From Gemmatimonadota bacterium (GTDB lineage: Bacteria > Gemmatimonadota > Gemmatimonadetes > Longimicrobiales > Gaopeijiaceae): DNA of 64,000 nt. Below are positions 26,376 through 55,828 of the stretch, one piece after another. The notes beneath the pieces are model-generated. The model was not told where the DNA came from. It saw only the letters and a list, made by a program, of their open reading frames with translations, and did not search any database. Position 1 is the stretch's first letter; every line of letters begins with the position of its first letter. The DNA lies in NCBI GenBank assembly GCA_015664885.1, contig DQPL01000089.1, forward strand, positions 62,001 through 126,000. The letters are read 5' to 3'. Position numbers and translations under genes: made by a program.

Positions 26376-26384
26376 GTCGGTCTC

Positions 26385-37968: not shown

Positions 37969-40900
37969 GTGACGACGCCAAGAGCCCTGACACGCTTCGC
38001 TGTTCCGTGGATGCCGCTCGCCCCATGTGTGGCGGCACTGCTGCTCGTGAGTTGCGGTGACGCGCCGCCCGAGTGGATCGGAGAGTCGCCCCTCCGCTGG
38101 CACCAGCTGAATGTGAGCGGAACGGAAGCTGCCGGCTTCACGGCTCTCGGCGCGCGACAAACCGGCGTCGATTTCACGAATGACCCAAGCGCCGAGATGG
38201 TGACGCGCAACCAGCATCTGGCCAACGGCGGGGGAGTCTCCCTCGGCGACGTCGACGGCGATGGTCGCGTAGACATCTTCCTCGTCAATACGCGTGGCGC
38301 CAACGGCCTCTTCTTGAATCGGGGCGGCATGCGATTCGAGGACGCCAGCGATGCCGCCGGAGTGAACTTCGGTGACCGCCGGCCCAGCGGCTCCGCGCTG
38401 GTCGATATCGACGGAGACGGTGACCTGGACCTACTCGTCTCCTCGATGGGCGCGCCCGTCACGCTGCTCGAGAACGACGGCCTGGGCGTATTCACCGATC
38501 GCTCGCTGGAGTCCGGTTTCGAGACTTCGCGCGCTGGTAGCACGATGACCTTGGCCGACATCGATGGCGATGGAGATCTGGATCTGTACGCCGCCAACTA
38601 CCGCCTCGATCGCGCCGCCGACGTCTTCTCTTCCGCGGATCGACGGGAGACGCCGGTGCTCGAGCGGCGCGACGGAGAGTGGGTCGTGAACGAGATGTAT
38701 CGGGAGTACTACCGTGTCATCGAGGACGCTGAGGGCGTATTGAGCTGGGAATTCGGCCAAGCCGACGACCTCTACCTAAACGACGGCACCGGTGCCTTTC
38801 AGCGAGAGCCCATTTCAGGGAGTCGATTCCTCGACGCTGAAGGTGAGCCGCTGGAGGTAGAGGCGCAGGAGTGGGGACTGGCCGCGCGCTTCCGCGACCT
38901 CAACGGCGACGGCGCGCCGGACCTCTACGTCGCCAACGACTTCGAGAGTCCGGACCAACTGTGGATCAACGACGGGGCAGGAACCTTCCGGCTGACCGGT
39001 GCGGGGGCGCTGCGAAAAACGAGTCATGCTTCGATGTCCATCGCCTTCGCCGACGTCGACGCCAACGGTACCACCGATATCTTCGTGGCGGACATGCTCC
39101 CGCTCTCGAGCCGGCTCAGGAAAACGCAGGTCTCGACCTTGATGGAAGTCCGGCCGCCACCCGGCTCCGTCGAGGTCACGATGCAGGTGAACCGAAACAC
39201 GCTCTTGCTTGGAAACGATGACGGCGCCTGGACGGAGGCGGCGCAACAGGCTGGCCTCGACGCCTCCGGTTGGTCCTGGGGTGCGGAATTCGTGGACGTC
39301 GACCTCGATGGTCATCAGGACTTGCTGATTGCGACAGGCCACCCCTGGAACGCAATGGACGCAGACACGGGGGAGCGTCTGCGGCGCACCCAGGCTGGCG
39401 CCGAGTGGAAAGATGTGATGAACCTCTTCCCCGCGCTCAGACTACCCAACCGAGCGTTTCGCAACTTGGGGGACGGGACCTTCGAACTCGTGGAAGGCGC
39501 ATGGGGATTGGACCGAGGAGAAGACATCTCCCACGGCTTGGCGACCGCAGATCTGGACGGCGACGGCGACCTTGACGTCGTGGTCAATCGTCTGGGCGAT
39601 CCTGCCCTCGTGCTACGCAATGACTCCGAGGCGGCCCGACTCGCCGTGAAGCTCGTGGGCTTGGCACCCAACACGGGCGCGGTGGGCGCGAAGATCCTCG
39701 TCTCGGGCGGCCCCGTCGACCAGGTACGCGAAGTGGGCGCCGGCGGACTCTACCTCTCGCACTCCGACGGTCTGCAGAGCTTCGCCACGGGCTCGGCTTC
39801 CTCGCTAACGATCGAAGTCACCTGGCGGTCCGGGGCACGAACCGTGGTGGAGGCCGAACCAAATCGCCTCTACGAGATCACGGAAGTATTGAACCAGGGG
39901 GCAGGCCCGGCTCCGACAGGGTCACCCCAAGCCACCGAGGGCCCGCTCTTCGAGGACCTGCGCGCGGCACTCGCGCACACGCACGCCGATCGGCCCTTCA
40001 ACGTCACTGTCGCGCAGCCTCTTATCCCCCGCGAGCTGAGCCGACTCGGTCCCGGAATCACTTGGACGGACAGCGATGGCGACGGCGACCCGGATCTGGT
40101 AGTCGGCGCAGGTGCGGGCGGCGCTGTGGCGTACTTCGAGAACCAGAACGGTACGCTGCGCAGGGCGGTCGCCGGACCCGCGCTCGAGTATGATGTGACC
40201 ACGCTGCTTCCCGAGCCAGACGGGCGTTCCCTGTTGGCGGGAGTCGCCAACTACGAGGCCCCGTCTCCCACGGCCGCTGTCGAAGTGCCGACGGCTGTCT
40301 CGATCCGACTCGGCCCGGGCGGCCCCGGGATGGGCGTGCCTGCGCTTTCGTCGGACGGCTCGTCCACAGGCGCTCTGGCGTCGGCTGATGTGGACGGAGA
40401 CGGAGACCTCGACGTATTCGTCGGCGGGCGTGTCTACGCGAGTGCCTACCCGCTGCCTCCCACGTCACGGCTCTTCAGGCGCCAACAGGACGGCAGTCTC
40501 GTGTACGACTCCGCCGCGTCAGCGCCGTTTTCGCGAGTGGGACTAGTATCGGGTGTGACCTTCACGGACATCGACGGCGACGCCGACCCCGACTTGGTGG
40601 TCGCCACGGACTGGGGTCCACCGCGTCTTTTCATCAACAACCGCGGCGGCTTCACCGAGAGTACGCGGTCGTGGGGCCTCTCTCCATATCTGAGCTGGTG
40701 GAACGGCGTTACGGCCGGCGACCTGGACGGCGACGGCCGCATGGACCTGGTGCTTACGTCCTGGGGCCGCAACATCGGTCTCGAGGCTCGCACGGACCGG
40801 CCGCTGCTCGGCTACTGGGGTGACTTCGACCGGAACGGTCAGCTCGACTTCCTTCTGGCTGCACGGGACGACCGGATTGGATCAGTTGCCCCGCTCACCA

Positions 40901-41679
40901 GCTTCGGGCGTCTTTCGAGCGGACTGCCCTATGTCCGCCGGCAGACCACGACCACGTACGGTGCTTATGCCGACGCTTCCCTTGCCCAGGTGTTAGGACC
41001 CGCGATAAGCAGCGGGCAGGTGTCGGAGATCACCACGCTTCAGCACATGATTTTCCTGAACCGCGGGGATCGTTTCGAGCCGCGCGTGCTGCCGGCCGCG
41101 ACCCAACTCGCGCCTGCTTTCCATCCCTCGGTCGCGGACTTCGACGGGGACGGGCACGAGGACCTGCTGCTCACCCAGAACTTCTTCCCCAACACACTCG
41201 GAGCCGAGCGCTTCGATGCCGGTCGAGGACTGCTGCTGCTAGGGGATGGGTCGGGCGAATTCGTGCCCCAAACCCCCTCGCAGTCCGGCATAAACCTGAG
41301 AGGAGATCAGCGCGGAGCCGCACTCGCGGACTACGACGGCGACGGGCGTATCGACCTCGCGATCGGACAGAACAATGGGCAGACCGTGCTGCTTCACAAC
41401 CGCCGCGGCCGCCGCGGAATCCGGGTCCGCCTGCGAGGCGGCGCGGCTAATCCACACGGCATCGGAGCCACCCTGCGCGTGGTTTATGCGGACGGACTCG
41501 GACCCGCACGGGAGCTGCGGCTCGGCTCGGGTTATTGGTCCGTCGACGATCCGGTGGCGGTGCTGGGCCTACGAACGGAACCGGAAGGCATCGAAGTGCG
41601 CTGGCCAGATGGGGTTGTGCAGCGCGTGGACGTCACGAACGATCAGCTCGGCATCACAGTCGTGCGGGCGAACCGCTAG
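37969..41679 (+). CDS. CRTAC1-like FG-GAP/VCBS repeat lipoprotein with two ASPIC/UnbV-type regions (1236 aa)
   Basis: Lipobox AALLLVSCGDAPP; repeated DxDGDGxxDL units; ASPIC-like GAVGAKILVSGG...ITWRSG-type region mid-protein and GIGATLRVVYADGLGPARELRLGSGYWSVDDPVAVLG...VRWPDGVVQRVDV at C-term. Confidence 0.9.
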   Translation: MTTPRALTRFAVPWMPLAPCVAALLLVSCGDAPPEWIGESPLRWHQLNVSGTEAAGFTALGARQTGVDFTNDPSAEMVTRNQHLANGGGVSLGDVDGDGRVDIFLVNTRGANGLFLNRGGMRFEDASDAAGVNFGDRRPSGSALVDIDGDGDLDLLVSSMGAPVTLLENDGLGVFTDRSLESGFETSRAGSTMTLADIDGDGDLDLYAANYRLDRAADVFSSADRRETPVLERRDGEWVVNEMYREYYRVIEDAEGVLSWEFGQADDLYLNDGTGAFQREPISGSRFLDAEGEPLEVEAQEWGLAARFRDLNGDGAPDLYVANDFESPDQLWINDGAGTFRLTGAGALRKTSHASMSIAFADVDANGTTDIFVADMLPLSSRLRKTQVSTLMEVRPPPGSVEVTMQVNRNTLLLGNDDGAWTEAAQQAGLDASGWSWGAEFVDVDLDGHQDLLIATGHPWNAMDADTGERLRRTQAGAEWKDVMNLFPALRLPNRAFRNLGDGTFELVEGAWGLDRGEDISHGLATADLDGDGDLDVVVNRLGDPALVLRNDSEAARLAVKLVGLAPNTGAVGAKILVSGGPVDQVREVGAGGLYLSHSDGLQSFATGSASSLTIEVTWRSGARTVVEAEPNRLYEITEVLNQGAGPAPTGSPQATEGPLFEDLRAALAHTHADRPFNVTVAQPLIPRELSRLGPGITWTDSDGDGDPDLVVGAGAGGAVAYFENQNGTLRRAVAGPALEYDVTTLLPEPDGRSLLAGVANYEAPSPTAAVEVPTAVSIRLGPGGPGMGVPALSSDGSSTGALASADVDGDGDLDVFVGGRVYASAYPLPPTSRLFRRQQDGSLVYDSAASAPFSRVGLVSGVTFTDIDGDADPDLVVATDWGPPRLFINNRGGFTESTRSWGLSPYLSWWNGVTAGDLDGDGRMDLVLTSWGRNIGLEARTDRPLLGYWGDFDRNGQLDFLLAARDDRIGSVAPLTSFGRLSSGLPYVRRQTTTTYGAYADASLAQVLGPAISSGQVSEITTLQHMIFLNRGDRFEPRVLPAATQLAPAFHPSVADFDGDGHEDLLLTQNFFPNTLGAERFDAGRGLLLLGDGSGEFVPQTPSQSGINLRGDQRGAALADYDGDGRIDLAIGQNNGQTVLLHNRRGRRGIRVRLRGGAANPHGIGATLRVVYADGLGPARELRLGSGYWSVDDPVAVLGLRTEPEGIEVRWPDGVVQRVDVTNDQLGITVVRANR

Positions 41680-44600
41680 CGGCTCCCGCCACCCAGAACC
41701 GCCATGGGCGTCGGCGCCCGAGTATGGTACCGCCGCACGATGTCGGGATGCGGGTATACCTCACTCGGACCATAAGGGTACTCGGACATCGCGTGGAAGG
41801 GCAGCGGCTCCACCCTCCATCCGTCCGCGGTATTCAAGTCCGCGTCCTTGATCCATCCGTCCGAATAGATCATGAAATCCCGGGTCCACCCTTCGGGGAG
41901 CGGCGGAGCCTTGGCAGCATCGAAGCGAAGCGTGATCTCGTCACCCGGACCCATGATCGGGTAGATATCGTCCGACTCGCTTACCAAGTCGAGCACCGAG
42001 CCGTAGCGAGTGTACGCACCCACGATCGGCCGCCACGGTGACTGCATGGACACGCTTGCATAGTCGAACCAATGGGGGCCGAACCGCCCCCCCTTGCGGT
42101 ATAGCTCGGAAAAGCCACGATAGTGAAAGTCGGCCGCGACGGGCTGCAGAGTAGTGACCTCGATGGGGGCTGTTACCGCTCCGACGGTGAAGAACGCGTG
42201 GTCCCAGTAGATGTTCATGTTGGTTCGGATGCGCACGCGATGGTCTTCGCTGCGAAAGAGCCCAGATAGATCCTGAACGACGACCTTGTTCTTCCCCGCC
42301 GGGAAACTCAACGCTTCGACTGCGGTCACCCACGCTCCGGAGACGTCGATGACCTCGAGGTACGGCATGATCGTGCCCAGCGTCTCGGACTGTGAGAGCG
42401 CCACGTTGATGCTGGCGTCGGTCGGGAAGATCCAGCCACGCAGGTACAGCTCGACAGGCGCATCCACCGCGAATGCCCCGAGGTCGAGCACGAGATCGTG
42501 CAGCGCGCTCACGCCCTGGTAGCGATCTGGCAGGAATTCGTCCACGTACCGGTCGTCCGCGTGCAGCAGCCGAGGCAACACATCGGTCCCGTGCCCATCG
42601 ACCGCCGAGAGCGGCGTTCGTTGCTCGGCTACCTGGTGAAGCACGAGCGGCGGGTTCGGTTCCGGGAATACGAAGCGCTCGTCCACGAAGACGTCCACCG
42701 AATCCGGATGGTCCACGACGACGAGCTCCACCTCGTCGATGTAGAAGACCTCCCACAGCTCACCCGTGATCTGGAGCTCGTATGCTCCGTCGCGCGGCTG
42801 CAAAGCGTGTCCAGGAATCTTCACGAAGCCCTGAGACGCGGCAGGCGGCGCGTACGCCGTCCCGCCCTGAGCCATGAGACCCATGGGCATGCCCAGTGCG
42901 CTCTTCCACATGAGATCGGTCAAAAACTCGAAGCGCTCTCCATTCCACGTGTACAAGAAGGGGCAAGAGCCTTTCAGAATCTGCTCCTCGATCATCGACT
43001 GATTCGCGTTGGGATAGAACAGGTTCTGCGGGACTCCGTTGGTCCAGCGAACACGGACCACGTCGGCTCGGCTGTGTTGGCCCAGACCGATATGGATCTC
43101 GGGACCCGTAACCACTCGGGTCTGGTACAGGCCGCCCGCGCGCACCTCGATCTTCGCGCCGATCCCGAAGTGGTTGTTCTTGCCGCTGCCCGTCGATAGG
43201 CCGACGAGCTGCATTTTGAGGTACCGGTTCGCATTGCCGCCATCGTTGCGGATCAGTCGCACCGAGCCATCGACGGCTGATACGAACAGGTCGAGGTCGC
43301 CGTCATCGCCAAAGTCGGCGAACTCCAGTCGACGCAACGCAGGCAACTCGCCTTGCACGAGGCTGGAGAGGTCGTCGAATCGACCTGCCGAGGAGTTTCT
43401 GAAGAGGCGAATGGCCCCTGCCCCGCCGTCTTCGGACTCTCCGACCAGCACGACATCGAGCCATCCGTCGTTGTCGAAGTCCACCAGGGCCGCGTCGTGA
43501 ATGATGAGCGTCGCGGCACCTTCCAACAGTACCGTCGGGCGCTCGTCCACCGCGAACCCGCCGTCTCCGTCGTTCAAGTGCAGCACCAGCCCCCGACCGC
43601 CTCGTGGTGCCGTCAGCAGATCGAGAAAGCCGTCGTTGTTGTAGTCGCCCACACGCACCACGCCTGCGCTGCCTGGCGTGAGGCCCCGGGCATCGCTCAC
43701 CTCGACGAAGACCCCCGACCTCTGATTGTCGAAGAGGCTAGTCGTGGACGCGCCCGAAAAGATCAGTTCCAAGTCATCGTCGTCGTCGAAATCCCCGAAG
43801 GCGGCGGCGCCTTGCACGCCCCCTGTCGCGGCCTCCGTGCCGGCGCGCCCGCGTACATCGGTGAACGTCCCGTCCAGGTTGTTGCGGTACATGCCGGTAC
43901 TCAGGCTGCCCGCCACGACCAGATCGAGGTCTCCGTCCTGATCGAAGTCGATGAACAGCGGCGCCCCGCCAGCCAGCGACACCTCGAGCTGAGCCGAGAC
44001 GTCTTCGAACGTGCCGTCGCCCAGGTTACGGAACAGGACTCCGGTCGCGCCTCGGGAGAGAAACAGGTCGAGCGCGCCGTCGTTGTCGTAGTCGCCGAAG
44101 AGCGCGTGGTCCGGGGCCGACCCGGTCACACCCGCCTGCGTCGAGACGTCAACGAACCCGGTGGGATCGTTCCGCCATAGAGCGCCCCCGGAGAAGACGT
44201 CCCGGTCACCGTCACCATCATAGTCCGCCACCGCGAGCGAGCGCCCACCGCCCGCGCCGGGACCAGGCATGCCCACGGTCTGCGTCACATCCGTAAATCG
44301 CAGCGCGGCCAACACGGTCTCTGGATCGCGTACCCCGGGTGTGAGCGTCTCGCTGAACGTGACCACGGGGAAGCCGAGCAGTACCCCGCCAGGCCCACGC
44401 AGCTCGAGCAAACCCTGCTGGTAGATCGGTGTCGTGCGCATCACGTTGTGGAACGCGAACGCGGCGCCCTGAGCGCCCGCGGCGTCACCACGTTGCGCGG
44501 CGAGCGAGGCTTGTTCGAATAGGTCTCTCCCTTCGACCGGGATCTCGGGCACTAGCTGACGGATCTGCCCCAGATGGATCGAGGCGCCTTCGGCCGCGCC

Positions 44601-45161
44601 TGCCGCGAGGTGCGCATCCACCAACTGTACACGTGCGCTCACGTTGCCCGGTTGCAGCGCGACAACGCGCTCGAGTTGAGCGGCACGGCGGGCGGCTGGA
44701 CCGGCATCGGTCGAGTCGGCGTCCAGCGTCGCAAGCGCGTACAGCGTTTTCACGTGGCTAGAGTCGATGAGCAAAGACGCTTCGAGCTCCTGCCTGGCCT
44801 CCAGCTCACGCTCCTGCGAGCGGAGAATTTCGACGAGAATTAGTCGCACGTCGGGGTCGGAGGGCAGCAGCTCGATCGCATGTCGCAGCTCGGTCTCCGC
44901 GTCGGCCAGCCGCCCCTGCCTCAAATACGTGAGCCCCAGGTTCGCATAACCCAGTGGCTCGCCCGGCGCCATTTCCACGAGTCGCTGGAACTCTGCCTCG
45001 GCCTCCGGCAATCGATTTTCCTCCAGATACGCCAAGCCTAGTGTGCGGACGGTGAGCAGTGCGGCGGGATCGGCCGGAGCGTCCGCGTCCGCGCACACGG
45101 TCAGCAGAAGCGATGCCAGCATCAGGGAAGGAGCGCGACGGCGGGCACTGCGAACGTTCAT
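41676..45161 (-). CDS. TPR + FG-GAP + ASPIC/UnbV lipoprotein with long C-terminal extension
   Basis: SLLLTVCADAD lipobox; TPR YANLGLTYLRQGRLADAETELRHAIELLPSDP; VADYDGDGDRDVFSGG; HFGIGAKIEVRAGGLYQTRVV; KGSCPFLYTWNGERFEFLTDLMWKSALGMPMGL. Confidence 0.88.
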   Translation of the reverse strand: MNVRSARRRAPSLMLASLLLTVCADADAPADPAALLTVRTLGLAYLEENRLPEAEAEFQRLVEMAPGEPLGYANLGLTYLRQGRLADAETELRHAIELLPSDPDVRLILVEILRSQERELEARQELEASLLIDSSHVKTLYALATLDADSTDAGPAARRAAQLERVVALQPGNVSARVQLVDAHLAAGAAEGASIHLGQIRQLVPEIPVEGRDLFEQASLAAQRGDAAGAQGAAFAFHNVMRTTPIYQQGLLELRGPGGVLLGFPVVTFSETLTPGVRDPETVLAALRFTDVTQTVGMPGPGAGGGRSLAVADYDGDGDRDVFSGGALWRNDPTGFVDVSTQAGVTGSAPDHALFGDYDNDGALDLFLSRGATGVLFRNLGDGTFEDVSAQLEVSLAGGAPLFIDFDQDGDLDLVVAGSLSTGMYRNNLDGTFTDVRGRAGTEAATGGVQGAAAFGDFDDDDDLELIFSGASTTSLFDNQRSGVFVEVSDARGLTPGSAGVVRVGDYNNDGFLDLLTAPRGGRGLVLHLNDGDGGFAVDERPTVLLEGAATLIIHDAALVDFDNDGWLDVVLVGESEDGGAGAIRLFRNSSAGRFDDLSSLVQGELPALRRLEFADFGDDGDLDLFVSAVDGSVRLIRNDGGNANRYLKMQLVGLSTGSGKNNHFGIGAKIEVRAGGLYQTRVVTGPEIHIGLGQHSRADVVRVRWTNGVPQNLFYPNANQSMIEEQILKGSCPFLYTWNGERFEFLTDLMWKSALGMPMGLMAQGGTAYAPPAASQGFVKIPGHALQPRDGAYELQITGELWEVFYIDEVELVVVDHPDSVDVFVDERFVFPEPNPPLVLHQVAEQRTPLSAVDGHGTDVLPRLLHADDRYVDEFLPDRYQGVSALHDLVLDLGAFAVDAPVELYLRGWIFPTDASINVALSQSETLGTIMPYLEVIDVSGAWVTAVEALSFPAGKNKVVVQDLSGLFRSEDHRVRIRTNMNIYWDHAFFTVGAVTAPIEVTTLQPVAADFHYRGFSELYRKGGRFGPHWFDYASVSMQSPWRPIVGAYTRYGSVLDLVSESDDIYPIMGPGDEITLRFDAAKAPPLPEGWTRDFMIYSDGWIKDADLNTADGWRVEPLPFHAMSEYPYGPSEVYPHPDIVRRYHTRAPTPMAVLGGGSR

Positions 45162-46945
45162 CGGTGTTCTCGTACCGTAATCGTCTGGCCGGTGGGAACT
45201 GGACCAAGCTCGACCGTGCGCCCACCCCGAGGCCAACTGACGACGAAACTGTCCACCGCCGCAGCCTCCCCTAAAGCGAAGAGCAGCGGGTTCAGGACCG
45301 ACTGAGAGAGATAGGACGAACCCGCGCCCACATACCGCCGCTGGACTCCCGCCTCCGTGTAGACGAGAACCAACGCGCCCAAGGCGTCCCGGTTCGGATG
45401 CGCGCCTTCGAGCCTGAGCTCGATCCACTGAGCGGACCCGGGGTTCAGGTCGTTGCGGTAGAGCCTGGGCGCCCCGCCGTTCACGGTGAGCAGCGCGTCG
45501 AGATCGCCGTCACCATCGATGTCCGCGGTCACCACGCCTCGGCCCACGATGGGAGCCGCGAACGCTTCGCCGACCAGCCCACTGACGTCGGAGAAGCGCC
45601 CCGAACCGTCGCCCAAGAAGAGTTGCGGCGGCTGCTCGAACGTCTGGTCCGCCTGCACCGCATTCACACCGGGTTCGATGTGTCCGTTCGCGCTCATCAA
45701 GTCCGGATGGCCGTCCAGGTCGAAGTCCGCGAACAGCACGCCGAAGGTCAGCGGCCCCAGCGTCGAGCGCGTAAGGCGAGCGGCACCGGCTCGGTCCTGG
45801 AAGAGGTTGTCCCCAATCTGCGTGAAAAGCGCGAGCGGCTCGTGCGCGAAGTTGCCGATCGCGATCGACCACCGGCCCTCACCGGTCAGGTCCGCCACGG
45901 CAACACCCATGCCGGCGCGGGCCCTGCCGGCCTCATCGAACGCGACGCCCGCGCGCACTGCGATGTCGGAAAAGGAGCCATCGCCGACATTTCGGTACAG
46001 GAAGTTGCGCTGGGTGTCGTTGGCCACGATCAGGTCGGGCCACCCATCCGCATCGAAGTCCGCTACCGCGACGCCGAGCGATTTCCCTTCCGGGTTCGAC
46101 ACGCCGGCCGACTCGGTGACGTCGGCAAAGCGCCCGGACCCGTCGTTTCGGTAGAGCCTACACGACTCACCTTGGTACTGCTGGGGAGTCGCGTATGACT
46201 TGGTCGTGCCGTCGATGGTCGCGAACAGGTCGGTCTCGCTCGTCCAGCGCACGTAGTTGCAGACGAACAGATCGAGCCAGCCGTCTCGATCGTAGTCGAG
46301 CCACGCCGCTCCGGAAGACCACGCCGCCGGCGCGCCGGGTGCATTGCCCGTGACCCCGGCAGATACGGTGACGTCGGTAAAGCGTGCTCCGTCGTTGCGC
46401 AGAAGCACGTTGTCTCCGACCGCGGTCAAGTAGATGTCCGGGTCGCCGTCGCCGTCATAGTCCGCGACGGTCGCCCCCATCCCGTAGATCGACAAGGCGA
46501 GACCGGCACTGGCCGTGACGTCCTCGAAATGGCCGTCCCCCAGGTTGCGGTAGAGCCGCTGCGTAGGCGGGCGGCCCGTTCCCTCGTGTCCCGGCCACCA
46601 GGTCCCGTTTACGAGCAGGAGGTCGGGAGAACCGTCTCCATCGTAGTCGAAGAAGGCCGCTCCGCTGCCCACCGTCTCCGGCATCCACTTCTCGCCGAAG
46701 GCACCGTTCTCGTGCACGAAGTCGAGGCCCGATTCCCGAGCCACCTCGGTGAAGCGCAAGTCGGTGCCCTCACCGGCGCCGGGTGCCGTGGCATACGCGC
46801 CCTCCGAGTACTCGGGCGCGGATTCTTCGACTGGCTCTTCTCCCCCGCATGCCGAAATCGCGAGCACGCACGCGAAACGCAGGGCCGACGAGGGCTTCGC
46901 GACGTGCCACCTCGAGACATGGCTGGCCAGACCGAGCCGCTTCAT
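45158..46945 (-). CDS. CRTAC1 family FG-GAP + ASPIC/UnbV lipoprotein (595 aa)
   Basis: LAISACGGEEPVEES lipobox; FFDYDGDGSPDLLLVNGTWWPG, VADYDGDGDPDIYLTAVGDN; C-term VLVYTEAGVQRRYVGAGSSYLSQSVLNPLLFALG. Confidence 0.92.
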   Translation of the reverse strand: MKRLGLASHVSRWHVAKPSSALRFACVLAISACGGEEPVEESAPEYSEGAYATAPGAGEGTDLRFTEVARESGLDFVHENGAFGEKWMPETVGSGAAFFDYDGDGSPDLLLVNGTWWPGHEGTGRPPTQRLYRNLGDGHFEDVTASAGLALSIYGMGATVADYDGDGDPDIYLTAVGDNVLLRNDGARFTDVTVSAGVTGNAPGAPAAWSSGAAWLDYDRDGWLDLFVCNYVRWTSETDLFATIDGTTKSYATPQQYQGESCRLYRNDGSGRFADVTESAGVSNPEGKSLGVAVADFDADGWPDLIVANDTQRNFLYRNVGDGSFSDIAVRAGVAFDEAGRARAGMGVAVADLTGEGRWSIAIGNFAHEPLALFTQIGDNLFQDRAGAARLTRSTLGPLTFGVLFADFDLDGHPDLMSANGHIEPGVNAVQADQTFEQPPQLFLGDGSGRFSDVSGLVGEAFAAPIVGRGVVTADIDGDGDLDALLTVNGGAPRLYRNDLNPGSAQWIELRLEGAHPNRDALGALVLVYTEAGVQRRYVGAGSSYLSQSVLNPLLFALGEAAAVDSFVVSWPRGGRTVELGPVPTGQTITVREHR

Positions 46946-49845
46946 CGACGGATCTCCAAGCGATGGGTCGGGATCGGCTGGGCCATGATGTTGGCTCCGG
47001 GATCACGTGCTCGGTACGCCCGAGTGATCTCCTGTGCCGACTCGTCGATGCCGTAATACAAGTAGGCTGCCTCGGCGCGATCAGCCTCTGCCTCCCGCCC
47101 GAGCGCTCTCAAGGCAAGCATGCGGTTATAGTGCGCGACGCGGTCCTCAGGATCGATCTCGAGCACCTCCGCCAACGCTTCGAGCGCGCGTTCGAATTGC
47201 TGATCCAGGAAGAGCGTGCGCCCCATGGCCCGCCAGGTCGCGCGGTCCTCGGGGAAGACCTCGAGCACGCGCTCGTACGCGAGCACGGCCTCGGAGTAGC
47301 GGCCGTCTTCCTGTAAAACGCGGCCCCAGACCCACGCCGCACGAGCGTCGCCGGTGGCCACTTCCTCCGCGCGTGCCAACGCGTCGTAGGCGGCCGTGAG
47401 GTTGCCTTCCGCCAAAGCCGTCTTGGCGAGATTCAACGGTCCGTCCGAGACGTCCGGGCGCAACGCGGCTACAATCTCGAATGCGTTAGCGGCGCCTCGG
47501 GTATCTCCCTCGAGCAGCAGCCCGATACCGTAGTCGTTGTAGCGAACCCATTGTTCCGGGAGCCGAGGAAACGATGGACCCCCGTCGACTGCCGTCTGGC
47601 CCACCACGAGCACGCGCGCCGAGTCCGATGCGATTTCTGTGACCGGCAGGTCGGGCACGTCATCGAAGCTGGCAAAGCCCGCCGGGTTGCCTGCAAAGGC
47701 GAACTCCGTGTACGCGCGGTCGAACTTCCTCCACAGCAGCCGAGCCCGAACCGTAAGGCGCGACTCCACCCACGCATCGGGAAGTACGAGCTCGAAGTGC
47801 GCGATATCGGCTGAGCCTGGACCAATCACGTTCTGGTAGACCGTGACGTGGATGTCCTGCGCGTTACGCCTGTGGATGGCGTCTCCGTCCTCATCGACGA
47901 TGACCGCCTTGAACGTGTGCGCCATGGGGTCGAGGTAGCCGTCCGCGCCGATCTCGCCACTCGCGACGAGCAGGTTGCCCTCCTCGTCCTCGATCGTGAA
48001 CTCGAGCCAACCCTCATTCGAGTCGTTGGTACCGCCCGGGAACGTGTGTCCGACGCCCGCGTTGCGGACCACGACATCGAACGTTAAGGGAACGCCGGCC
48101 TCCACCTCGGAAGCATCCCACTCGAGCGGCATTGTCACGGCTCGACCAGGTGCCTTCACGGCCAGAACGTCCACGGTGAGCTTCGAATCTCTCAGGAACT
48201 CCTCGATGCGCCGGACCGTGGCGGTATCCGCACGCAGATAAGGCAGCGCGGTGTTGACGGCCAAGAAGCGATGAGAGCGTACCATGCCATTGTCCGCCGC
48301 CACATCGCCACGAGGCGCCGGCTCCAAGGGCATATGACAGTCCTGACAAACGCGTTTGCTCGGCGGTAGATAGAACGTGCGCGCCGCGTTCAGTGCGACT
48401 CCACTGTCGTCCCAATTGTCGAAGTCGTCCTGCCCCCGCAGCCATCGGTAGTTGTTGACCGGCTCGGTGAGGCTGACCTTGTGGCACGTCGCACAGAATG
48501 CGCTCTCTGAGTGGAACGGCTTGAGCAGTCGCGCCTTGTGCACCGCTGGCCGAGCCTTGACCGCCAGGTCATGCAGGTACCTGCCTGACGAGCCTGGCGG
48601 GGACGCAGGAAAGAGATAGGGGTCCTCCTGTTCGTCCGGGATGTTGTAGTTCCCGTTGCCGGTCTGGTCATGGACGCGGTCGATCGCGTGGCACGCCAGA
48701 CACGTCAGCCCTGCCTGGGCTTCGAGGCTGGTACGATCGATCTCCCGCCCCATGGTGCCTGCGAGCATCAACGCAGGGTCGTGACAGCCGCTGCACCACT
48801 TGCTCTTTCCGCGGCCAACGCCGTCAACGTCCTCGGGGAACGAAGCGATGTGCTCCTCCATCCACGGATTGGTCTCAAGTGCGCCTCTGCGCATATCCAT
48901 GATGGTCGCTTCGTAGAAGGGGTTGTTGAACGAAGCAAAACGGTGCGCCGAGGTCGCCCACTGATCGACCACGTCCGGATGGCAGGTCTCGCAGGACTCT
49001 GCGCCGATGCGCGCCTCCATCACGAAACCGCGATCGGCCACTTCCGCGCGTACTGCATCCCGCGACGTCCCAAAACCCGGAGTAGTCAAGATTCTCGCGG
49101 CCAGATACGCGCCGGTCGTGGTGGTCGTGGCAGAGGGGAAGAACGGGCTGGCAGGCGGCACCGCGGCAACCGGCACCCAGCCCGCCGGGCCGAACCTGCC
49201 CGCCAATAGCTGCTGTACATCGCGGTCCGCGCCGCCCGGAGCCGTCGACGGTGCGGCAAGTGTGCCGCCGCCGCCCAATACGAGCGCTCCGTGGGCCAGG
49301 AAGAGAGCGAGCGCGGCAACCGAGATCCCCCCCAGGTAGCGCGCGAACTGGAGCCCGTCAGGGCGGGCAAAGCTCACCATGCGATGCACGATGTACGCAC
49401 CCACCACGACCGACGATGCAACTACGTGCGTCCACCAAGCCCACTGGTTCTCTCGGGTTGCGGCGGCCGAGAGGATGAAGAGCCCGGTTACGAGCAACGT
49501 GATGCCCAGCACGGCGTACGCCCCTCCGGACCAAGCGGAGGCAGCGTGGTATCGGCGCCAGACAGTCGGCAGGTGCGCCACCAAGAACACGATCATTACG
49601 CCGACCAGCGCGATGCCCACCCCGGTGTGCGCGAGCAGCATGAACTGATAGAAGCGGGGTAGTGTGTCGGCTCCCAACGCAAAAGGCGTAAGCCCCACGC
49701 CTGATGCGAATCGCACCAGTAGTAGATAGACCGTATCCGCCAACAAGAACCCCGCCACCACAATCGCACCCGCGAGCAGCCGCCGTAGCCAGCCCGGCAA
49801 CAACGAGGGAAGTCGGGGACGTGGCTGCGCCTTCGAGCGACTCAT
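46942..49845 (-). CDS. Membrane-anchored multiheme cytochrome c with C-terminal TPR repeats (967 aa)
   Basis: Five CXXCH motifs: CETCH, CSGCH, CLACH, CATCH, CQDCH; N-terminal hydrophobic helices; TPR-type C-terminus. Confidence 0.9.
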   Translation of the reverse strand: MSRSKAQPRPRLPSLLPGWLRRLLAGAIVVAGFLLADTVYLLLVRFASGVGLTPFALGADTLPRFYQFMLLAHTGVGIALVGVMIVFLVAHLPTVWRRYHAASAWSGGAYAVLGITLLVTGLFILSAAATRENQWAWWTHVVASSVVVGAYIVHRMVSFARPDGLQFARYLGGISVAALALFLAHGALVLGGGGTLAAPSTAPGGADRDVQQLLAGRFGPAGWVPVAAVPPASPFFPSATTTTTGAYLAARILTTPGFGTSRDAVRAEVADRGFVMEARIGAESCETCHPDVVDQWATSAHRFASFNNPFYEATIMDMRRGALETNPWMEEHIASFPEDVDGVGRGKSKWCSGCHDPALMLAGTMGREIDRTSLEAQAGLTCLACHAIDRVHDQTGNGNYNIPDEQEDPYLFPASPPGSSGRYLHDLAVKARPAVHKARLLKPFHSESAFCATCHKVSLTEPVNNYRWLRGQDDFDNWDDSGVALNAARTFYLPPSKRVCQDCHMPLEPAPRGDVAADNGMVRSHRFLAVNTALPYLRADTATVRRIEEFLRDSKLTVDVLAVKAPGRAVTMPLEWDASEVEAGVPLTFDVVVRNAGVGHTFPGGTNDSNEGWLEFTIEDEEGNLLVASGEIGADGYLDPMAHTFKAVIVDEDGDAIHRRNAQDIHVTVYQNVIGPGSADIAHFELVLPDAWVESRLTVRARLLWRKFDRAYTEFAFAGNPAGFASFDDVPDLPVTEIASDSARVLVVGQTAVDGGPSFPRLPEQWVRYNDYGIGLLLEGDTRGAANAFEIVAALRPDVSDGPLNLAKTALAEGNLTAAYDALARAEEVATGDARAAWVWGRVLQEDGRYSEAVLAYERVLEVFPEDRATWRAMGRTLFLDQQFERALEALAEVLEIDPEDRVAHYNRMLALRALGREAEADRAEAAYLYYGIDESAQEITRAYRARDPGANIMAQPIPTHRLEIRR

Positions 49846-52055
49846 CGATCCGCTCCCAAAGCGAACGGCGCGCGCTCGAGCAACTCTGCCCCGGCAGCGC
49901 CTTCGGTCACCCGATAGGCCGAGTCCAATTCGAGGCCGATCAACTCCTGAGAGTTGCCTGTCGTCGGCCAGCGCACCGTGACCAACAAGACACGCTCGGC
50001 ACGGCCCAATCCAATGTCGAGCCGAAGAGGGTTACCGCCGAACGAGCTACCGCTCGACACGACTCGGTGGATATCTCGCGTTTCGCCATCCATCTCCACC
50101 GTGACGCGTACGCGCGCCCCGATCGCGGACCGATTGCTTTCGACTCCCACCAGCCAGAGGGAGAGCCAGCGATTGCCACGCCCTGGATTCTCGAAGAGCA
50201 CGTTGTGGGCTACGTCGCCCTCGTAGGCGCCACCCATCGCGGCAAACACGTCTTGATCGCCGTCGTGGTCGATATCGCCGAAAGCGACGCCATGGCCCTT
50301 CTGGATCAGCCCGAATCCCCCCGAAGTCGTCACGTCTTGAAAGTGCTCGCCCCTGTCGTTTCTAAACATCCGGTTGGGCATCAGCGCCTGGAAATATGCG
50401 TCCCCGGTGCCCACGTAGAAGTCGAGCCAACCATCGTTGTCAAGATCCCCGAAGTTGGACCCCATCGCGAACTGGATACGGTCGAGACGAACCGCCTCGG
50501 AGACCTCGTCGTAGGTGCCGTCGCCCCGGTTCCGATACAGACGGGGCAACTCCGATGCATGAGGCAAATCGAGGTACTCCGCGGCGATATCCCCGAAGTT
50601 CGTACGATACCCCGCCACGAAGATGTCGAGCCAGCCGTCGTTGTCGTAGTCCCAGAACCAGGTTGGGAACGCGTCGCGTGGCTCGGCCACGCCTGCCTCG
50701 CTCGTCCGGTCGCTGAAGCTCCACGCCCCGTCCGTCCCCGGGCCCTCGTTGCGCAGCAGGACGTTGGGCGCATTGGTGCGCGACACGTAGAGATCAGGGC
50801 GGCCGTCGTTGTCGTAGTCGCCCCACGTGACGCCCTTCACGATGCCCGTAATTGCCACACCCGCTTCATGGGCGATATCCAAGAACGTGCCGTCTCCAAG
50901 ATTTCGGAACAGTTGGCAGGGATGGGGCCGCTCGCCGAACGTTTCGTTGCCGACGAAGAGATCGAGCAACCCGTCGCCGTCGAAGTCCGCCCAGCTCGCG
51001 GTCTGGCTCGGATGCATGGGCCACAGAAGACCCGCCTGCTCCGTCACATCCTCGAACGTGCCGTCACCTCGGTTCCGCAACAGGGAGTTGACCTGCCCCT
51101 CGACCAGCCAACCGCCGCGCAGGACGAAAACATCGAGATCGCCGTCGTTGTCGTAGTCGGCCTGCACGAGGTTGCCGCCGCCCCAGAGACCCTCGAGCCC
51201 GGCCGCCCCAGTGAGTGACTCGAACGTGCCGTCGCCCCGGTTCAGGTGATATCTGAGCGGGTCCCGGAGCTGCCAAGACGACGCCATGAGGTCGAGCAGA
51301 CCATCTCCGTTGAAGTCGTCCATGACCCCGCCCCCTACGTGTCCGACATCGTCCACGCCCAGGGCTGGGGCGACGTCCCGGAACCGACCGATCTCGTATT
51401 CGGACCGGAAGGCAAGTTCGGGAATCCGGTGCGCATCAGGCACCCCCGTCGGGTACGTACCCACCATCATGTGGGCGACGTTGAGCATCCATCTGGCTCC
51501 GAGGTTGTCCGGGTCGCGCCCGAGCAGTTCTTCGTATATCGGAATCGATGCCAGCGCCCCCCTGGGAGCGGTGTGCACCAATTCCGCAGGCACAGGGACG
51601 AGGCAAGCGACCGCGCCGATGCCATCGATGCAGTTCTCGAACTCTCCAAGCCTAAGGTGTGCCGTCGCCAGGTAGTCCAGAAGAGACTCCAGGAAGCTCG
51701 CGGGCGCCCGCTCGGATGGCGGCGCATCAGCCTCGTACTCGGCCAGGTCGGCCCGCAAGGACTCCAGGAGCTCGATGGCGGTTTCGAGTCGTCCGGCGTA
51801 CAGCGTTTGCTCCGCGATGGCCAGCCGAAAGAGCATCCGTTCCCGGTCGTTCGTGCGAGCCGGCAGCGCCTCCATGGCCTCGAGCAGAGCGGAGTTCGCA
51901 AACCGGTTCTTCACCGGATCCACACCGACGACCGCCGCGTCCAGGTACGCGGCCATGTCGAATGGGGCCTCGGCTTCGGGCGAAGAGCACGCGACCGCCG
52001 CCAGGGCCAACGGGACACATAAGAGAAGCGCCGGCAGGCGGGAATCGATTGTCAC
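49842..52055 (-). CDS. CRTAC1 family FG-GAP + ASPIC/UnbV lipoprotein (737 aa)
   Basis: LALAAVACSSPEAEA lipobox; MDDFNGDGLLDLMASS, QADYDNDGDLDVFVLRGG, GDIDHDGDQDVFAAMGGAY; C-term SAIGARVRVTVEMDGETRDIHRVVSSGSSFGGNPLRLDIGLG. Confidence 0.92.
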   Translation of the reverse strand: MTIDSRLPALLLCVPLALAAVACSSPEAEAPFDMAAYLDAAVVGVDPVKNRFANSALLEAMEALPARTNDRERMLFRLAIAEQTLYAGRLETAIELLESLRADLAEYEADAPPSERAPASFLESLLDYLATAHLRLGEFENCIDGIGAVACLVPVPAELVHTAPRGALASIPIYEELLGRDPDNLGARWMLNVAHMMVGTYPTGVPDAHRIPELAFRSEYEIGRFRDVAPALGVDDVGHVGGGVMDDFNGDGLLDLMASSWQLRDPLRYHLNRGDGTFESLTGAAGLEGLWGGGNLVQADYDNDGDLDVFVLRGGWLVEGQVNSLLRNRGDGTFEDVTEQAGLLWPMHPSQTASWADFDGDGLLDLFVGNETFGERPHPCQLFRNLGDGTFLDIAHEAGVAITGIVKGVTWGDYDNDGRPDLYVSRTNAPNVLLRNEGPGTDGAWSFSDRTSEAGVAEPRDAFPTWFWDYDNDGWLDIFVAGYRTNFGDIAAEYLDLPHASELPRLYRNRGDGTYDEVSEAVRLDRIQFAMGSNFGDLDNDGWLDFYVGTGDAYFQALMPNRMFRNDRGEHFQDVTTSGGFGLIQKGHGVAFGDIDHDGDQDVFAAMGGAYEGDVAHNVLFENPGRGNRWLSLWLVGVESNRSAIGARVRVTVEMDGETRDIHRVVSSGSSFGGNPLRLDIGLGRAERVLLVTVRWPTTGNSQELIGLELDSAYRVTEGAAGAELLERAPFALGADR

Positions 52056-52150: not shown

Positions 52151-55100
52151 TCAAGACGAGGGCAGGCGGATCACGATGTGGACAGATCCCGCCTCGAGCG
52201 GCGTTTCTGACACGCTCCCGTCTGGCCAACGGACCTCGACCGCTCGCGCCCGCCCTGAAACGCCCAGAACCTGAACCGCGTCGTCGCTCGACCAGTAGCC
52301 GGATCCCGAGCGAATCTCCCGAGCGGGTCCGACCGTGTCATCGTACAGGAGCCGCATACGCGCCCCGATGGCGGTCGGATTCGAGGGCGGCCCCTCGAGC
52401 ACCACCCGCAGGCCGGGGCGGGCCCCCACGTTGTGGAATAGCTTTGTCTGCGTGCCGTTCTGCGCCACCGCCAGATCGATCCGAGCATCTCCGTCGTAGT
52501 CGGCGAACGCAGCGCCACGTTGGTCTCCATATACGATCAGGCCCGAGCGCGCCGCCGAGAGCGCACTCAGATCTCCCGTGCCGTCACCGAGGAGCACCAA
52601 CCCACGACCGGCGTCGTACCGGGGCGTGAAGCCCTCCGTCGGGAAGAAATTCTGCGTGATGACGACGTCCTCGTGCCCGTCCCCGTCGATATCGGCCACC
52701 CCCACGTGATGGGCGGGGGCGAGCTGCGCCTCGACAGGAAGCGGTCTCGCTTCGAAGCGCCCGCCGCGATTCAGGAGCACCGTGTGCTCCAACGTTTCCG
52801 CTCGCAGGAGGAAGAAACTCGACACGTCGGTGCCAATCACACCGGCAAGCGTCGACTCGGCGTAGTCGCCGAAGTTACCCAAGCGAGCGCGCAGGGATGG
52901 CACGGCGCTCCGCATCTGCTCGTAGCGCGCCAATGGATAAAGAGGACCTCCCTCGGTGCGCGCCCGCGCGAGCAATACTTCCCATGTGCCACTCTGGTCG
53001 ATGTCGCCGTGGACTAGGGTGAGGAGCCGGTCTGGTGACGTCACCAGTCGCGAATTGAGGCCTTCGTTGGTCGCGACCAGATCCATGCGGCCGTCGCCGT
53101 CGAGGTCTCCTGATGTGATGCCCCGCCAAAGGCCTGTGAGCGAAGCCAATCCCCACCGCTCGGTGACGTCCGTAAAAGTACCGCCCTGATTCAGGAAGAG
53201 GCGGATCGGACCCCATTCCACAGCCAGAGCGAGGTCGGGGTCACCGTCGTTGTCAATGTCGGTGAAGACCGCGCCCGAAACGAGTCCGAGATCTTCGAAT
53301 CCGGTCTGCTCGGTATCGCGATACACGCCTTCTTCGTTGATGAGCAGGCGAGACGTAGCCGGCAGTGGGTAAAAAGCCGGCACCGTACGGCCTCCAACGA
53401 ACAGATCCAGGTCCCCGTCCCCGTCTACATCGGCCTGAGCGAGCGGACCTACGGAGCTGAGCAGCGGTTCGGCAACCGCCTCTGACTCCGATCCGCCTCG
53501 CCAAGCGAGCCGCGTCACGCCGGCGAGGCCCCGTGCCTCCGCCGCCGACTCGGCGTCGAAGCTCGTCCTGCCGACAAGCAACGACACCACACCAGCACGC
53601 CAGGAAGGCAGGATCGTCGTCTGGTCGTGCAGACTCGTCGTGCCCGGCACCGACGTGAATCGCCCACCGTCGTTGAGCAGAACCGACGTCCGGCCCCCCT
53701 GCGCGGCGGCAATGATGAGATCGGGATCTCCGTCTCGGTCCACGTCGGCCCAGGTCACGCCGGGCCCGAGCCGGGACAATTCGTACGGCAGCAGCGGCTG
53801 GCGCGCGAGGTCCGCGAACGGCTGTTCTCGGTGCCGGTGGTCGAGCGAGCTGGAAACGTCCTCGAAGATAGCTTCCACGAAAGGGGACCCCGTGACGTCC
53901 GGCACCCGCTGAGCGCCTGATTCACGGACCTCGTACAGGCGGTTCGCAGCAACCGAGATCAGTGTCACCCCACCCCTCGGCCAGGTCACCTCGAGCCGCA
54001 TCTCCCCTTCCGAGGCCCCCGCCGCGAAGGACACGAGCGTCTCTGAACCCGAGAGGTAGAGTCCGCCCGCAGTGATTTGCTTGTCCTGAAACGGTACCGG
54101 CGTGCCTGTACCACCACCGCCCAGCAGTCTGACCCGAGCTCCGATCGCCTGGGTGTTGGGGGCGTCCCCGACGAGGCGCACCGCGACCCGTGCCCCGGGG
54201 GCGTCGTTGCGAAGCATCAGCACGGGCATGTTCAGGCGACTGAGAACGACGTCCAGGTCTCCGTCTCCGTCGAGATCGCCTGATGCGATCCCGTGAGAGA
54301 CGTCGGGTGAGCGGGAAAACCCCCACTCCTCGGCGACTTCCTCGAAGGTGAGGTCGCCGCGATTGCGGAAAGCTCGGTTTCTCGTCGGCAACTCCGGATA
54401 CAGCGACTTCGCCTCGTTCCACGTGACCGAGCCGCGCAGCCCAGTGATGCGCTCGAGCGCGTCGCCGTCCCTCATGTCCCTGCCGTGACCGTTGGCCACG
54501 AGCAAGTCCTCGAACCCGTCGAGGTCCACGTCTAGGAACAGGCTCCCCCAGGTCCACTCCGAACCGTCGACGCCCGCCATCTCGGCGATCTGCGCCCAGG
54601 TACCGTCACCGCGTCCCAGAAACAACGTGTTGCGGCCGGCTTGAGGGCGGTCGGCGATTCGGCCCGGCGGCTTGTCGAGAGCGGCGTGCAAGGGGACTTG
54701 CTCCAGCCTCCGCCCTGCCTCCGAGCTCAGCATGTCGGCTACGAAGAAGTCGACGTGTCCGTCGCGATTCACGTCTGAGAAATCGACCGCCATTGAAGCA
54801 TGGCTCTGAGTGCGCAGCGCGAACGGGTCCGCGAGGCGGAACGTGCCCGAGCCGTCGTTGAGCCACAGGTAGTCGGGGTCGTCGAAGTCGTTGCACACGT
54901 AGAGATCCACGTCGCCGTCGCCGTCCACGTCATAGAAACGTGCCGCGAGGCCGAAGTCGTCTACGTCACGAGCGAGCGGCACGCCATCCGCGTCGAGGAA
55001 ACGTCCTCCCGTCCAGGAGACCGCCTCGAAGTGACCCGTACCGTCATTCAAGTAAAGGCGATCCGGATCCGCCTGCTCCGCCGCGACCTGCACGCCGTCG

Positions 55101-55828
55101 CGCATTTCGAGTCGAAAGTGTTGCTGGAATTCCTCCGCGATCCGACGCTCACCGTCCAGCTCGACGACCAGATCGACCGAGGCTCGCTCGTAGGGGCGCA
55201 GCACATCGGCAGCACTCTCGACCTTGTAGTTGGCCACATACAAGTCGAGGTCGCCGTCGGCGTCCACGTCCGCGAACGTGGCGCTGGTGCTACCGAGCGC
55301 CGAGGAGAGGCCCGCGTCCGCGGTTGCGTCCTCGAAAGAGCCGTCCCCAAGGTTCAGGAAGAGCGCGTTCGGACCTCCGAGTGCGGTGACGAAGAGATCC
55401 AGGCGACCGTCGCCGTCGACGTCCGCGAACGATGCGCCCGTGGAGTAGCGGCCGGGCGCGCCTACCCCCGCCTCTTCGGTCACGTCTTCGAAGCGCCATC
55501 CGCCCAGATTCCGGTAGAGAGCGTTGGAGCCCTCCAGGCGAGGAAAATACAGGTCGGCAAGTCCGTCACCGTCGTAGTCCCCCACTGCCACACCCGAGCC
55601 CACGAGCAGGTGGTCATGCTCGATGGCCGCGACCCGCGACAGTCGATTCCCGAAGTCCACGCCTGTGCGGCGAGTCGACATCTCGGTGAATCCCGGGTTT
55701 CCCCGCTCGCGTATCGAGAGCTCGCGCCATCGGAAGTCCTCCGCCTCCTGCCACGGAGGGGTAGCCTCGCTTGCACAGCCGGCGACAGCGAGAAGCAATA
55801 ACAAGGACGCGCGCAGCGGACACACCAT
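52151..55828 (-). CDS. CRTAC1-like FG-GAP/VCBS repeat lipoprotein with two ASPIC/UnbV-type regions (1225 aa), paralog of 37969-41679
   Basis: LLAVAGCASEA lipobox; repeated DVDGDGRLDLF units; RRTGVDFGNRLS / LPYELSRLGPGVTWADVDRDGDPDLI blocks shared with the 1236-aa protein. Confidence 0.9.
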   Translation of the reverse strand: MVCPLRASLLLLLAVAGCASEATPPWQEAEDFRWRELSIRERGNPGFTEMSTRRTGVDFGNRLSRVAAIEHDHLLVGSGVAVGDYDGDGLADLYFPRLEGSNALYRNLGGWRFEDVTEEAGVGAPGRYSTGASFADVDGDGRLDLFVTALGGPNALFLNLGDGSFEDATADAGLSSALGSTSATFADVDADGDLDLYVANYKVESAADVLRPYERASVDLVVELDGERRIAEEFQQHFRLEMRDGVQVAAEQADPDRLYLNDGTGHFEAVSWTGGRFLDADGVPLARDVDDFGLAARFYDVDGDGDVDLYVCNDFDDPDYLWLNDGSGTFRLADPFALRTQSHASMAVDFSDVNRDGHVDFFVADMLSSEAGRRLEQVPLHAALDKPPGRIADRPQAGRNTLFLGRGDGTWAQIAEMAGVDGSEWTWGSLFLDVDLDGFEDLLVANGHGRDMRDGDALERITGLRGSVTWNEAKSLYPELPTRNRAFRNRGDLTFEEVAEEWGFSRSPDVSHGIASGDLDGDGDLDVVLSRLNMPVLMLRNDAPGARVAVRLVGDAPNTQAIGARVRLLGGGGTGTPVPFQDKQITAGGLYLSGSETLVSFAAGASEGEMRLEVTWPRGGVTLISVAANRLYEVRESGAQRVPDVTGSPFVEAIFEDVSSSLDHRHREQPFADLARQPLLPYELSRLGPGVTWADVDRDGDPDLIIAAAQGGRTSVLLNDGGRFTSVPGTTSLHDQTTILPSWRAGVVSLLVGRTSFDAESAAEARGLAGVTRLAWRGGSESEAVAEPLLSSVGPLAQADVDGDGDLDLFVGGRTVPAFYPLPATSRLLINEEGVYRDTEQTGFEDLGLVSGAVFTDIDNDGDPDLALAVEWGPIRLFLNQGGTFTDVTERWGLASLTGLWRGITSGDLDGDGRMDLVATNEGLNSRLVTSPDRLLTLVHGDIDQSGTWEVLLARARTEGGPLYPLARYEQMRSAVPSLRARLGNFGDYAESTLAGVIGTDVSSFFLLRAETLEHTVLLNRGGRFEARPLPVEAQLAPAHHVGVADIDGDGHEDVVITQNFFPTEGFTPRYDAGRGLVLLGDGTGDLSALSAARSGLIVYGDQRGAAFADYDGDARIDLAVAQNGTQTKLFHNVGARPGLRVVLEGPPSNPTAIGARMRLLYDDTVGPAREIRSGSGYWSSDDAVQVLGVSGRARAVEVRWPDGSVSETPLEAGSVHIVIRLPSS

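Follow-up and report, generated by a model that had tools for sequence, protein, structure and literature searches.

Do a membrane cytochrome and the five lipoproteins encoded around it form a single redox machine, and between which partners would its electrons move? The question is raised by six adjacent genes, here named A to F, in a window of 64,000 nucleotides from a Gemmatimonadota bacterium (contig DQPL01000089.1, positions 62,001 to 126,000). A first-pass annotation took them for one co-expressed cassette. The analysis described here leads to a conserved unit with fewer genes and a much wider distribution than was supposed: on the best reading, its core is a two-gene redox module formed by the cytochrome D and the lipoprotein C.

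Organization of the gene cluster

The six open reading frames lie where they had been placed. The co-directional set occupies the minus strand and is headed by F (52151..55828), which encodes a 1225-aa bimodular FG-GAP/UnbV lipoprotein. It continues with E (49842..52055; a 737-aa FG-GAP/UnbV lipoprotein with a weakly TPR-like N-terminus), D (46942..49845; a 967-aa membrane cytochrome), C (45158..46945; a 595-aa CRTAC1-family lipoprotein with an FG-GAP propeller and UnbV) and B (41676..45161), a 1161-aa lipoprotein that combines TPR, FG-GAP and UnbV parts with a conserved C-terminal domain. The 4-bp overlaps at 49842-49845, 46942-46945 and 45158-45161 each consist of ATGA on the minus strand, and the start of B was set at 45161, instead of at the mechanical ORF start 45428, because of its ATGA overlap with C. 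Gene A (37969..41679, plus strand) encodes a 1236-aa bimodular lipoprotein paralogous to F; each has two UnbV_ASPIC domains by Pfam, and the identity is 46-48% per half. A is convergent with B, their 3' ends overlapping at 41676-41679. Lying on the opposite strand, A is therefore outside the operon: the five FG-GAP/UnbV lipoproteins do flank D, but only F-E-D-C-B is co-directional.

The protein families were also correctly named. Each of the five proteins other than D scores above the curated cut-offs for Pfam FG-GAP_3 and UnbV_ASPIC. DxDxDGxxD-type calcium loops number 13/5/6/7/12 in A/B/C/E/F, where 300 shuffles of each sequence never gave more than 2. All five carry a plausible lipobox (LVSC, LTVC, ISAC, AVAC and VAGC), from whose outer-membrane type a surface placement may be proposed. 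D contains exactly five CXXCH motifs, with TPRs at the C-terminus (Pfam).

The membrane and heme domains of D

The N-terminal domain of D (residues 18-191; 49273..49794, minus strand) contains five transmembrane helices, a feature absent from the first-pass description. Residues His73 and His91 are located in helix 2 (64-98) and His140 and His154 in helix 4 (131-157). These four histidines are invariant in all 72 aligned D homologues and lie within helices of the models, while His185 is found in 67 of the 72. The spacing is 18 residues in helix 2 versus 14 in helix 4. Two conserved histidine pairs on two membrane helices are the general mark of a diheme cytochrome b; no Pfam match to a cytochrome b family was obtained with D or with the separate membrane domain of a related locus (L043). 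From the alignment and the model, D may thus carry two b hemes.

The pentaheme c domain (residues 271-555; 48181..49035) follows, and after it an Ig-like beta domain, seen in the models, that bears the GHTFPGGTNDSNEGW motif (residues 556-750; 47596..48180) and a TPR domain (residues 763-947; 47005..47559), all on the minus strand. The five CXXCH cysteine pairs are invariant in the 72 homologues and the motif histidines are kept in at least 71. The genome carries cytochrome c assembly genes. A first AlphaFold model, based on 14 sequences, gave pLDDT values of 20-45 in the heme region; it was redone with 62 sequences and with the TPR omitted, giving a 744-aa model of pLDDT 81.7 and pTM 0.81. The first fold match of this model is the Thermochromatium tepidum pentaheme c552 5ze8 (Foldseek E 6e-10, TM 0.62 on the target). 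A PDB search with the whole of D was dominated by TPRs and was repeated with the c/Ig part, whose sequence profile agrees with the 5ze8 fold (hmmsearch E 4.7e-4). As modelled, the c domain belongs by fold with the PHC pentaheme cytochromes such as ExtKL.

The PHC cytochromes (ExtKL and Gsu2801 of Geobacter, sPHC/lPHC of cable bacteria, and 5ze8) have, like D, five CXXCH motifs and then an Ig-like domain. Unlike them, D contains a five-helix b-type-like membrane domain and a TPR in the same chain, and it has a CRTAC1 lipoprotein as its partner. The ExtKL family (NCBIfam NF040886) was the most frequent match, in 46/46 members, always below the cut-off; as D reaches 30.9 bits against a curated cut-off of 250 bits, it was rejected as an ExtKL orthologue. 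A second comparison is with CbcL, in which a periplasmic nonaheme c domain is attached to a six-helix diheme b-type domain (PMC9129911). D shares with the inner-membrane quinone oxidoreductases CbcL, MtrH and MtoC the layout of a diheme-b-type membrane domain plus a periplasmic multiheme c domain, and no sequence link to any of the three was found. D differs from CbcL in its five N-terminal helices, its five PHC-type c hemes and its Ig and TPR domains; with five helices and five CXXCH against six helices and nine c hemes, it was not assigned to CbcL. D is probably an inner-membrane-spanning protein with seven hemes in total.

Protein C and its CRTAC1 relatives

Many environmental phyla commonly encode proteins of the CRTAC1/FG-GAP-UnbV type, and no assignment of a function to the bacterial members was found in the literature searched. 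C scores 145.8 bits with FG-GAP_3 and 43.4 bits with UnbV_ASPIC (Pfam gathering cut-offs 26.9 and 23.4). It shares with CRTAC1/ASPIC-UnbV proteins the FG-GAP repeats and the C-terminal UnbV, and matches the human CRTAC1 structure 9etn (phmmer E 1.7e-21), from which it differs in being a predicted bacterial lipoprotein encoded together with a membrane multiheme cytochrome. The lipobox cysteine is kept in 60/62 homologues and an aspartate at +2 occurs in 1 of the 60, so that C looks like an outer-membrane lipoprotein under the +2 sorting rule, which is that of E. coli. CRTAC1 paralogues on two other contigs of this genome (C88 and C113) lie without a neighbouring cytochrome, so that a link to cytochromes does not hold for the entire family.

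Conservation of the D-C pair

Had the cassette been one machine, its genes might be expected to be conserved together; this proved true of a part of it. A set of 223 D relatives was cut to 80 loci, from about nine phyla, that encode full-length homologues with the same domain order. D and C were adjacent in 66 of the 69 testable loci, again in about nine phyla, with C downstream on the same strand. The adjacency was counted with tblastn because greedy ORF calling sometimes chose antisense ORFs over C. In 49/68 cases the D gene terminates in ATGA, GTGA or TTGA and could overlap a start codon. Among 298 genomes of the phylum, D is present in 40, C in 41 and both in 40 (Fisher p 6e-49, uncorrected for kinship). 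A second D-type lineage, about 28% identical and mostly with four hemes, keeps the order and has its own CRTAC1 gene. Across phyla, therefore, D and C form a nearly obligate pair of neighbours. Clustering of the neighbours gave no further widely recurrent partner, only clade-specific ones.

B is often retained with the pair. It is present in 37 of the 40 D-bearing genomes (and in 27 genomes without D), and in many D loci it is the third gene, after C. Its C-terminal domain of about 430 aa (41679..42959, minus strand) has many invariant residues (GSCP, ELWE, GWIFPTDASIN, RTN..IYWD), and neither Pfam nor the PDB gave a match to it. The complete order F-E-D-C-B is seen again in family members and in one KSB1 MAG. 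E is found near D in L049-L051/L069, L079 and the KSB1 locus L122, an F-like gene in L069, L071, L079, L089, L092, L122 and L139, and A in the closest relatives alone (L049-L051/L069). E, F and A are accessory and missing in most cases, coming and going while D-C stays. The proposal of a single redox machine is thus supported for D-C, with B as a frequent member, but five FG-GAP proteins in one machine are not general.

One ORF of 272 aa, in L043, resembled a fusion of the D membrane domain to UnbV and was considered as a Rosetta-stone link. It was rejected as such: its make-up is exactly what a deletion within an ancestral D-C operon leaves, it sits just before B, and no such fusion was found in 101 other genomes of the same family. 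It is accordingly taken as a remnant and not as evidence of D-C contact.

A proposed route for the electrons

The first-pass suggestion that electron transfer involves a substrate in the envelope or outside the cell is plausible, and we favour, at slightly better than even odds (about 0.55), a trans-periplasmic redox module that would connect the quinone pool with the outer envelope, where it would meet a partner or substrate. D would act as the inner-membrane electron-transfer protein, the two putative b hemes on helices 2 and 4 exchanging electrons with the quinone pool and passing them to the five c hemes of the periplasmic PHC-type domain, where a catalytic site may also be located. C, a CRTAC1-type beta-propeller lipoprotein rich in calcium loops and predicted to sit on the outer membrane, would dock on the Ig/TPR part of D. 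Together they would span the periplasm and either hand electrons to an acceptor or substrate at the outer envelope or take electrons from it, the outward direction appearing the more likely. In this genome the core would be joined by B, and the accessory propeller lipoproteins E, F and A probably contribute binding surfaces. No match to the MtrB/PioB porin (PF11854) was found in the genome; a known outer-membrane conduit is therefore missing and the system is not of the MtrCAB/PioAB type.

The absence of any porin conserved near D-C would also fit a self-contained periplasmic respiratory reductase, in which a five-coordinate catalytic heme in the PHC domain would reduce a soluble substrate at the expense of quinol, C would be structural or substrate-binding, and no electrons would leave the periplasm. 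Conservation of the PHC core goes well beyond what electron conduction alone would call for: 82/285 c-domain positions are invariant at ≥98%, as compared with 11/174 for the membrane domain and 14/185 for the TPR domain. The PHC cytochromes of cable bacteria have been assigned to a group with five-coordinate hemes and potential catalytic activity (PMC11976967). However, at least seven conserved non-CXXCH histidines lie in the c/Ig region of the D homologues, a number sufficient to give each of the five hemes bis-His ligation, and we consider such a reductase unlikely, if worth serious attention.

The module might instead run inward, C or a partner bound to it oxidizing an envelope substrate and D feeding the quinone pool as a dehydrogenase-type system. 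CbcL-family b/c proteins are thought to be bidirectional (PMC6295460), and relatives encode, between B and A, a single-CXXCH/TPR protein with motifs that we interpreted as copper-monooxygenase-like. CRTAC1-family genes also flank the genes for multiheme enzyme subunits in hydrazine-synthase-like clusters, which differ from D-C in having other cytochrome subunits and, in the accessible part of that report, no 5-TM b-type domain with TPR (PMC12758564). Against the inward direction, neither C nor D has a dehydrogenase domain and no substrate-oxidizing neighbour recurs, which makes it rather improbable.

A surface nutrient-binding locus with the cytochrome as a passenger could be imagined from the clustering of five propeller lipoproteins and from G (55874..59233, plus strand), a divergent outer-membrane beta-barrel (CarboxypepD_reg plus OMP_b-brl_4) beside F. 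No SusD family member exists among A-F and G matches OMP_b-brl_4, so the locus is not of the SusC/SusD type; moreover, G is not core, a close orthologue lying near D in a few family members only, and G, A, E and F come and go where D-C stays, leaving this explanation very little credit. Chance linkage, which the multi-copy nature of FG-GAP/UnbV genes in this genome might suggest, is possible for A but excluded for D-C by adjacency across phyla in constant order and strand, near-perfect co-occurrence and the same order in a divergent paralogous lineage, and as a general account is next to negligible.

Significance

No description of the D-C pair was found in the full-text literature searched, where the hydrazine-synthase and PHC papers were the only neighbours. 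As a tentative proposal, which we would not rate as high as even, D-C may represent a class of energy-metabolism complexes, widespread but not yet described, in which a diheme b, pentaheme c, Ig and TPR protein is combined with a CRTAC1 propeller lipoprotein and which has its own envelope reaction, such bacterial CRTAC1 proteins being dedicated subunits of multiheme redox systems. With D, the PHC cytochromes, hitherto associated with cable bacteria and with extracellular electron transfer, gain a membrane-anchored representative that occurs in lineages not known for respiration of the extracellular electron transfer type. Because one branch of CRTAC1 is so nearly always accompanied by a membrane b/c multiheme cytochrome in about nine phyla, it can be connected with respiration or with redox chemistry of the envelope, and the role of these widespread uncharacterised proteins becomes testable, also in cultured and harmless marine Bacteroidota such as Lutimonas and Lutibacter.

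Organization of the gene set

Six long genes lie within 37969-55828 of the window. F (55828-52151), E (52055-49842), D (49845-46942), C (46945-45158) and B (45161-41676) follow one another in this order of transcription on the minus strand, with ATGA overlaps at the E/D, D/C and C/B junctions; A, at 37969-41679 on the plus strand, is convergent with B. A, B, C, E and F all score above the curated Pfam cut-offs for FG-GAP_3 and UnbV_ASPIC, A and F each having two UnbV domains, and D carries five CXXCH motifs and a C-terminal TPR region. These matches, motif counts and overlaps confirm the content proposed in the first-pass annotation, FG-GAP/UnbV proteins around a multiheme cytochrome. The 18-kb cassette stands for the co-directional F-E-D-C-B genes, but A falls outside the operon; the start of B, rightly assigned to its family, was corrected to 45161, and D, correctly read as a five-CXXCH membrane cytochrome/TPR protein, gains an N-terminal membrane domain. 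Elsewhere in the window, a TonB-dependent receptor with CarboxypepD_reg/Plug (26385-29693, minus) has behind it a 548-aa protein that matches no Pfam family (24729-26375, minus), a SusC/SusD-like arrangement spanning 24729-29693.

Distribution of the D-C pair

For D and for C, a 595-aa CRTAC1-family lipoprotein, the direct evidence consists of sequence, fold, adjacency and co-occurrence. D-type genes (E<=1e-20) occur in 40 of 298 genomes of the phylum and C-type genes (E<=1e-70) in 41; both occur in 40, a count over about 20 genera uncorrected for kinship, in which one genome, G086, may owe the pair to a misbinned contig. A scan with the D alignment, covering one genome for each of 84,980 species, gave 223 relatives. 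The best 80 of these are ~40-71% identical to D across nearly full length and come from Gemmatimonadota, Latescibacterota, Planctomycetota, Bacteroidota (with Lutimonas saemankumensis and Lutibacter citreus as isolates), Rhodothermota, Calditrichota together with KSB1, Neomarinimicrobiota (Fidelibacterota) and Handelsmanbacteria, and from two pseudomonadotal MAGs. In 66 of the 69 loci with enough sequence for the adjacency test, D has a C homologue downstream in the same orientation, no more than 3.5 kb away and usually no more than 100 bases, and clustering of all other neighbours yielded no third gene widely common to D-C loci.

In the D gene tree the phyla are broadly grouped, with Gemmatimonadota and Latescibacterota mixed (six and seven changes), a pattern that transfer, paralogy or misbinning could each produce. 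The loci of G086 (L059, contig C33) and of a MAG titled Gammaproteobacteria (L141) lie on contigs of equal length (26470) and have a layout resembling Palauibacter-type loci, which suggests a misbinned contig in both; the Kuenenia title of L143 may be wrong as well. At L067 (8509-16792, G035) genes for histidine ammonia-lyase (with a 4-bp overlap with C) and urocanase come after the pair, and there is a divergent barrel like G, the outer-membrane beta-barrel gene divergent from F.

The other genes of the set are less constant. B-type genes occur in 64/298 genomes of the phylum, 37 of which carry D, and B stands directly behind C or one gene later in a large share of Gemmatimonadota as well as in KSB1/Caldithrix loci. 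Near relatives retain the complete F-E-D-C-B order, and a KSB1 MAG (L122) has it with two extra genes inserted, one of them a transposase-type ORF; L089 and L139 have F-D-C-B. A is near D only in the closest relatives, as is G, apart from L067. One family carries an 841-aa FG-GAP_2/LVIVD lipoprotein between C and B (L058-L060, L062, L063, L077, L085, L088, L141). Between B and A, the close relatives L049, L050 (1045-3234, minus), L051 and L069 encode a ~730-aa lipoprotein with one CXXCH and TPRs, absent there from the window; the source genome has more than a dozen paralogues (~32%) of the N-terminal part on other contigs, and HH and HxH motifs in the middle part of the lipoprotein may resemble those of copper type II monooxygenases.

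Anatomy of D and C

Two predicted models of D agree on N-terminal helices at 18-50, 64-98, 101-127, 131-157 and 164-191. H73, H91, H140 and H154 are invariant in 72/72 D sequences and H185 is kept in 67/72. By the positive-inside rule, helices 2 and 4 would run in the same direction, which would put H73/H140 on the periplasmic side and H91/H154 toward the cytoplasm. Diheme cytochromes b usually follow this arrangement, with a histidine pair near each membrane face. D matches none of the Pfam cytochrome b families. Behind these helices come a pentaheme domain, an Ig-like domain, in which the motif GH.FPGGT.DSN is invariant, and the TPR. With the better model, Foldseek placed the pentaheme c552 of Thermochromatium tepidum (5ze8) first (E 6e-10; next 5e-4), and the sequence profile independently did the same. 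ExtKL was the commonest NCBIfam match among 46 members scanned, under its cut-off. The pentaheme cytochrome (PHC) family described in 2025 comprises ExtKL, Gsu2801 and cable-bacteria cytochromes, combines a pentaheme and an Ig-like domain, and has been connected with c552 as well as with an archaeal cytochrome nanowire (PMC11976967).

C matches human CRTAC1 (9etn) with E 1.7e-21. Its lipobox cysteine is aligned in 60/62 homologues, with Asp at +2 once; in E. coli, lipoproteins without Asp at +2 are sorted to the outer membrane, and because of this rule C would be an outer-membrane lipoprotein. Many polar residues outside its calcium loops are invariant (H78, W209, K249, H422), consistent with a conserved putative binding site.

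Proposed electron path

Most likely, electrons from the quinol pool would enter D at the inner membrane via two putative b hemes and pass to the five c hemes. From there they would either be consumed at the PHC site or go on to a partner that C holds at the outer membrane, with the TPR and Ig parts of D as the likely docking surface. CbcL joins a diheme b part to a nonaheme c part (PMC9129911); D has a similar layout, a putative b-type membrane part with a multiheme c part, but differs from the numbers that define CbcL, and therefore may work like CbcL without being one. A rival reading, catalysis at the PHC site, gains support from the high conservation of this core, where 82/285 positions are at least 98% conserved versus 11/174 in the membrane part. 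A textbook conduit is argued against by the absence of MtrB/PioB from the source genome.

Related arrangements and meaning

A second D-type lineage, of about 700 aa, with mostly four CXXCH and no TPR, is about 28% identical to D. A CRTAC1-like gene is called immediately behind it in eight loci (L039-L042, L044, L046-L048) and lies there too in L045 (by match coordinates) and L161; B is near in several loci. At L043 (8479-9297, minus; G198) a 272-aa ORF, joining the D membrane domain to an UnbV end immediately upstream of B, appears to be what remained after a deletion within a D-C operon. At L047 (355-2594) a separate 178-aa TPR protein, like the TPR of D, overlaps a C-type gene, as though D had been divided or its heme region lost. 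Another CRTAC1-multiheme pair is seen at L162 (5041-9745, minus; G219), where a C-like gene adjoins a 969-aa protein with ten CXXCH and a lactonase/cyt d1-like propeller.

A search of full-text literature, apart from subscription papers and preprints, yielded no description of the D-C pair. The closest statement there is that CRTAC1 genes flank hydrazine-synthase-like subunit genes (PMC12758564). Taken together, the D-C pair, those clusters and L162 suggest that one branch of bacterial CRTAC1 proteins serves as partners of multiheme redox enzymes.
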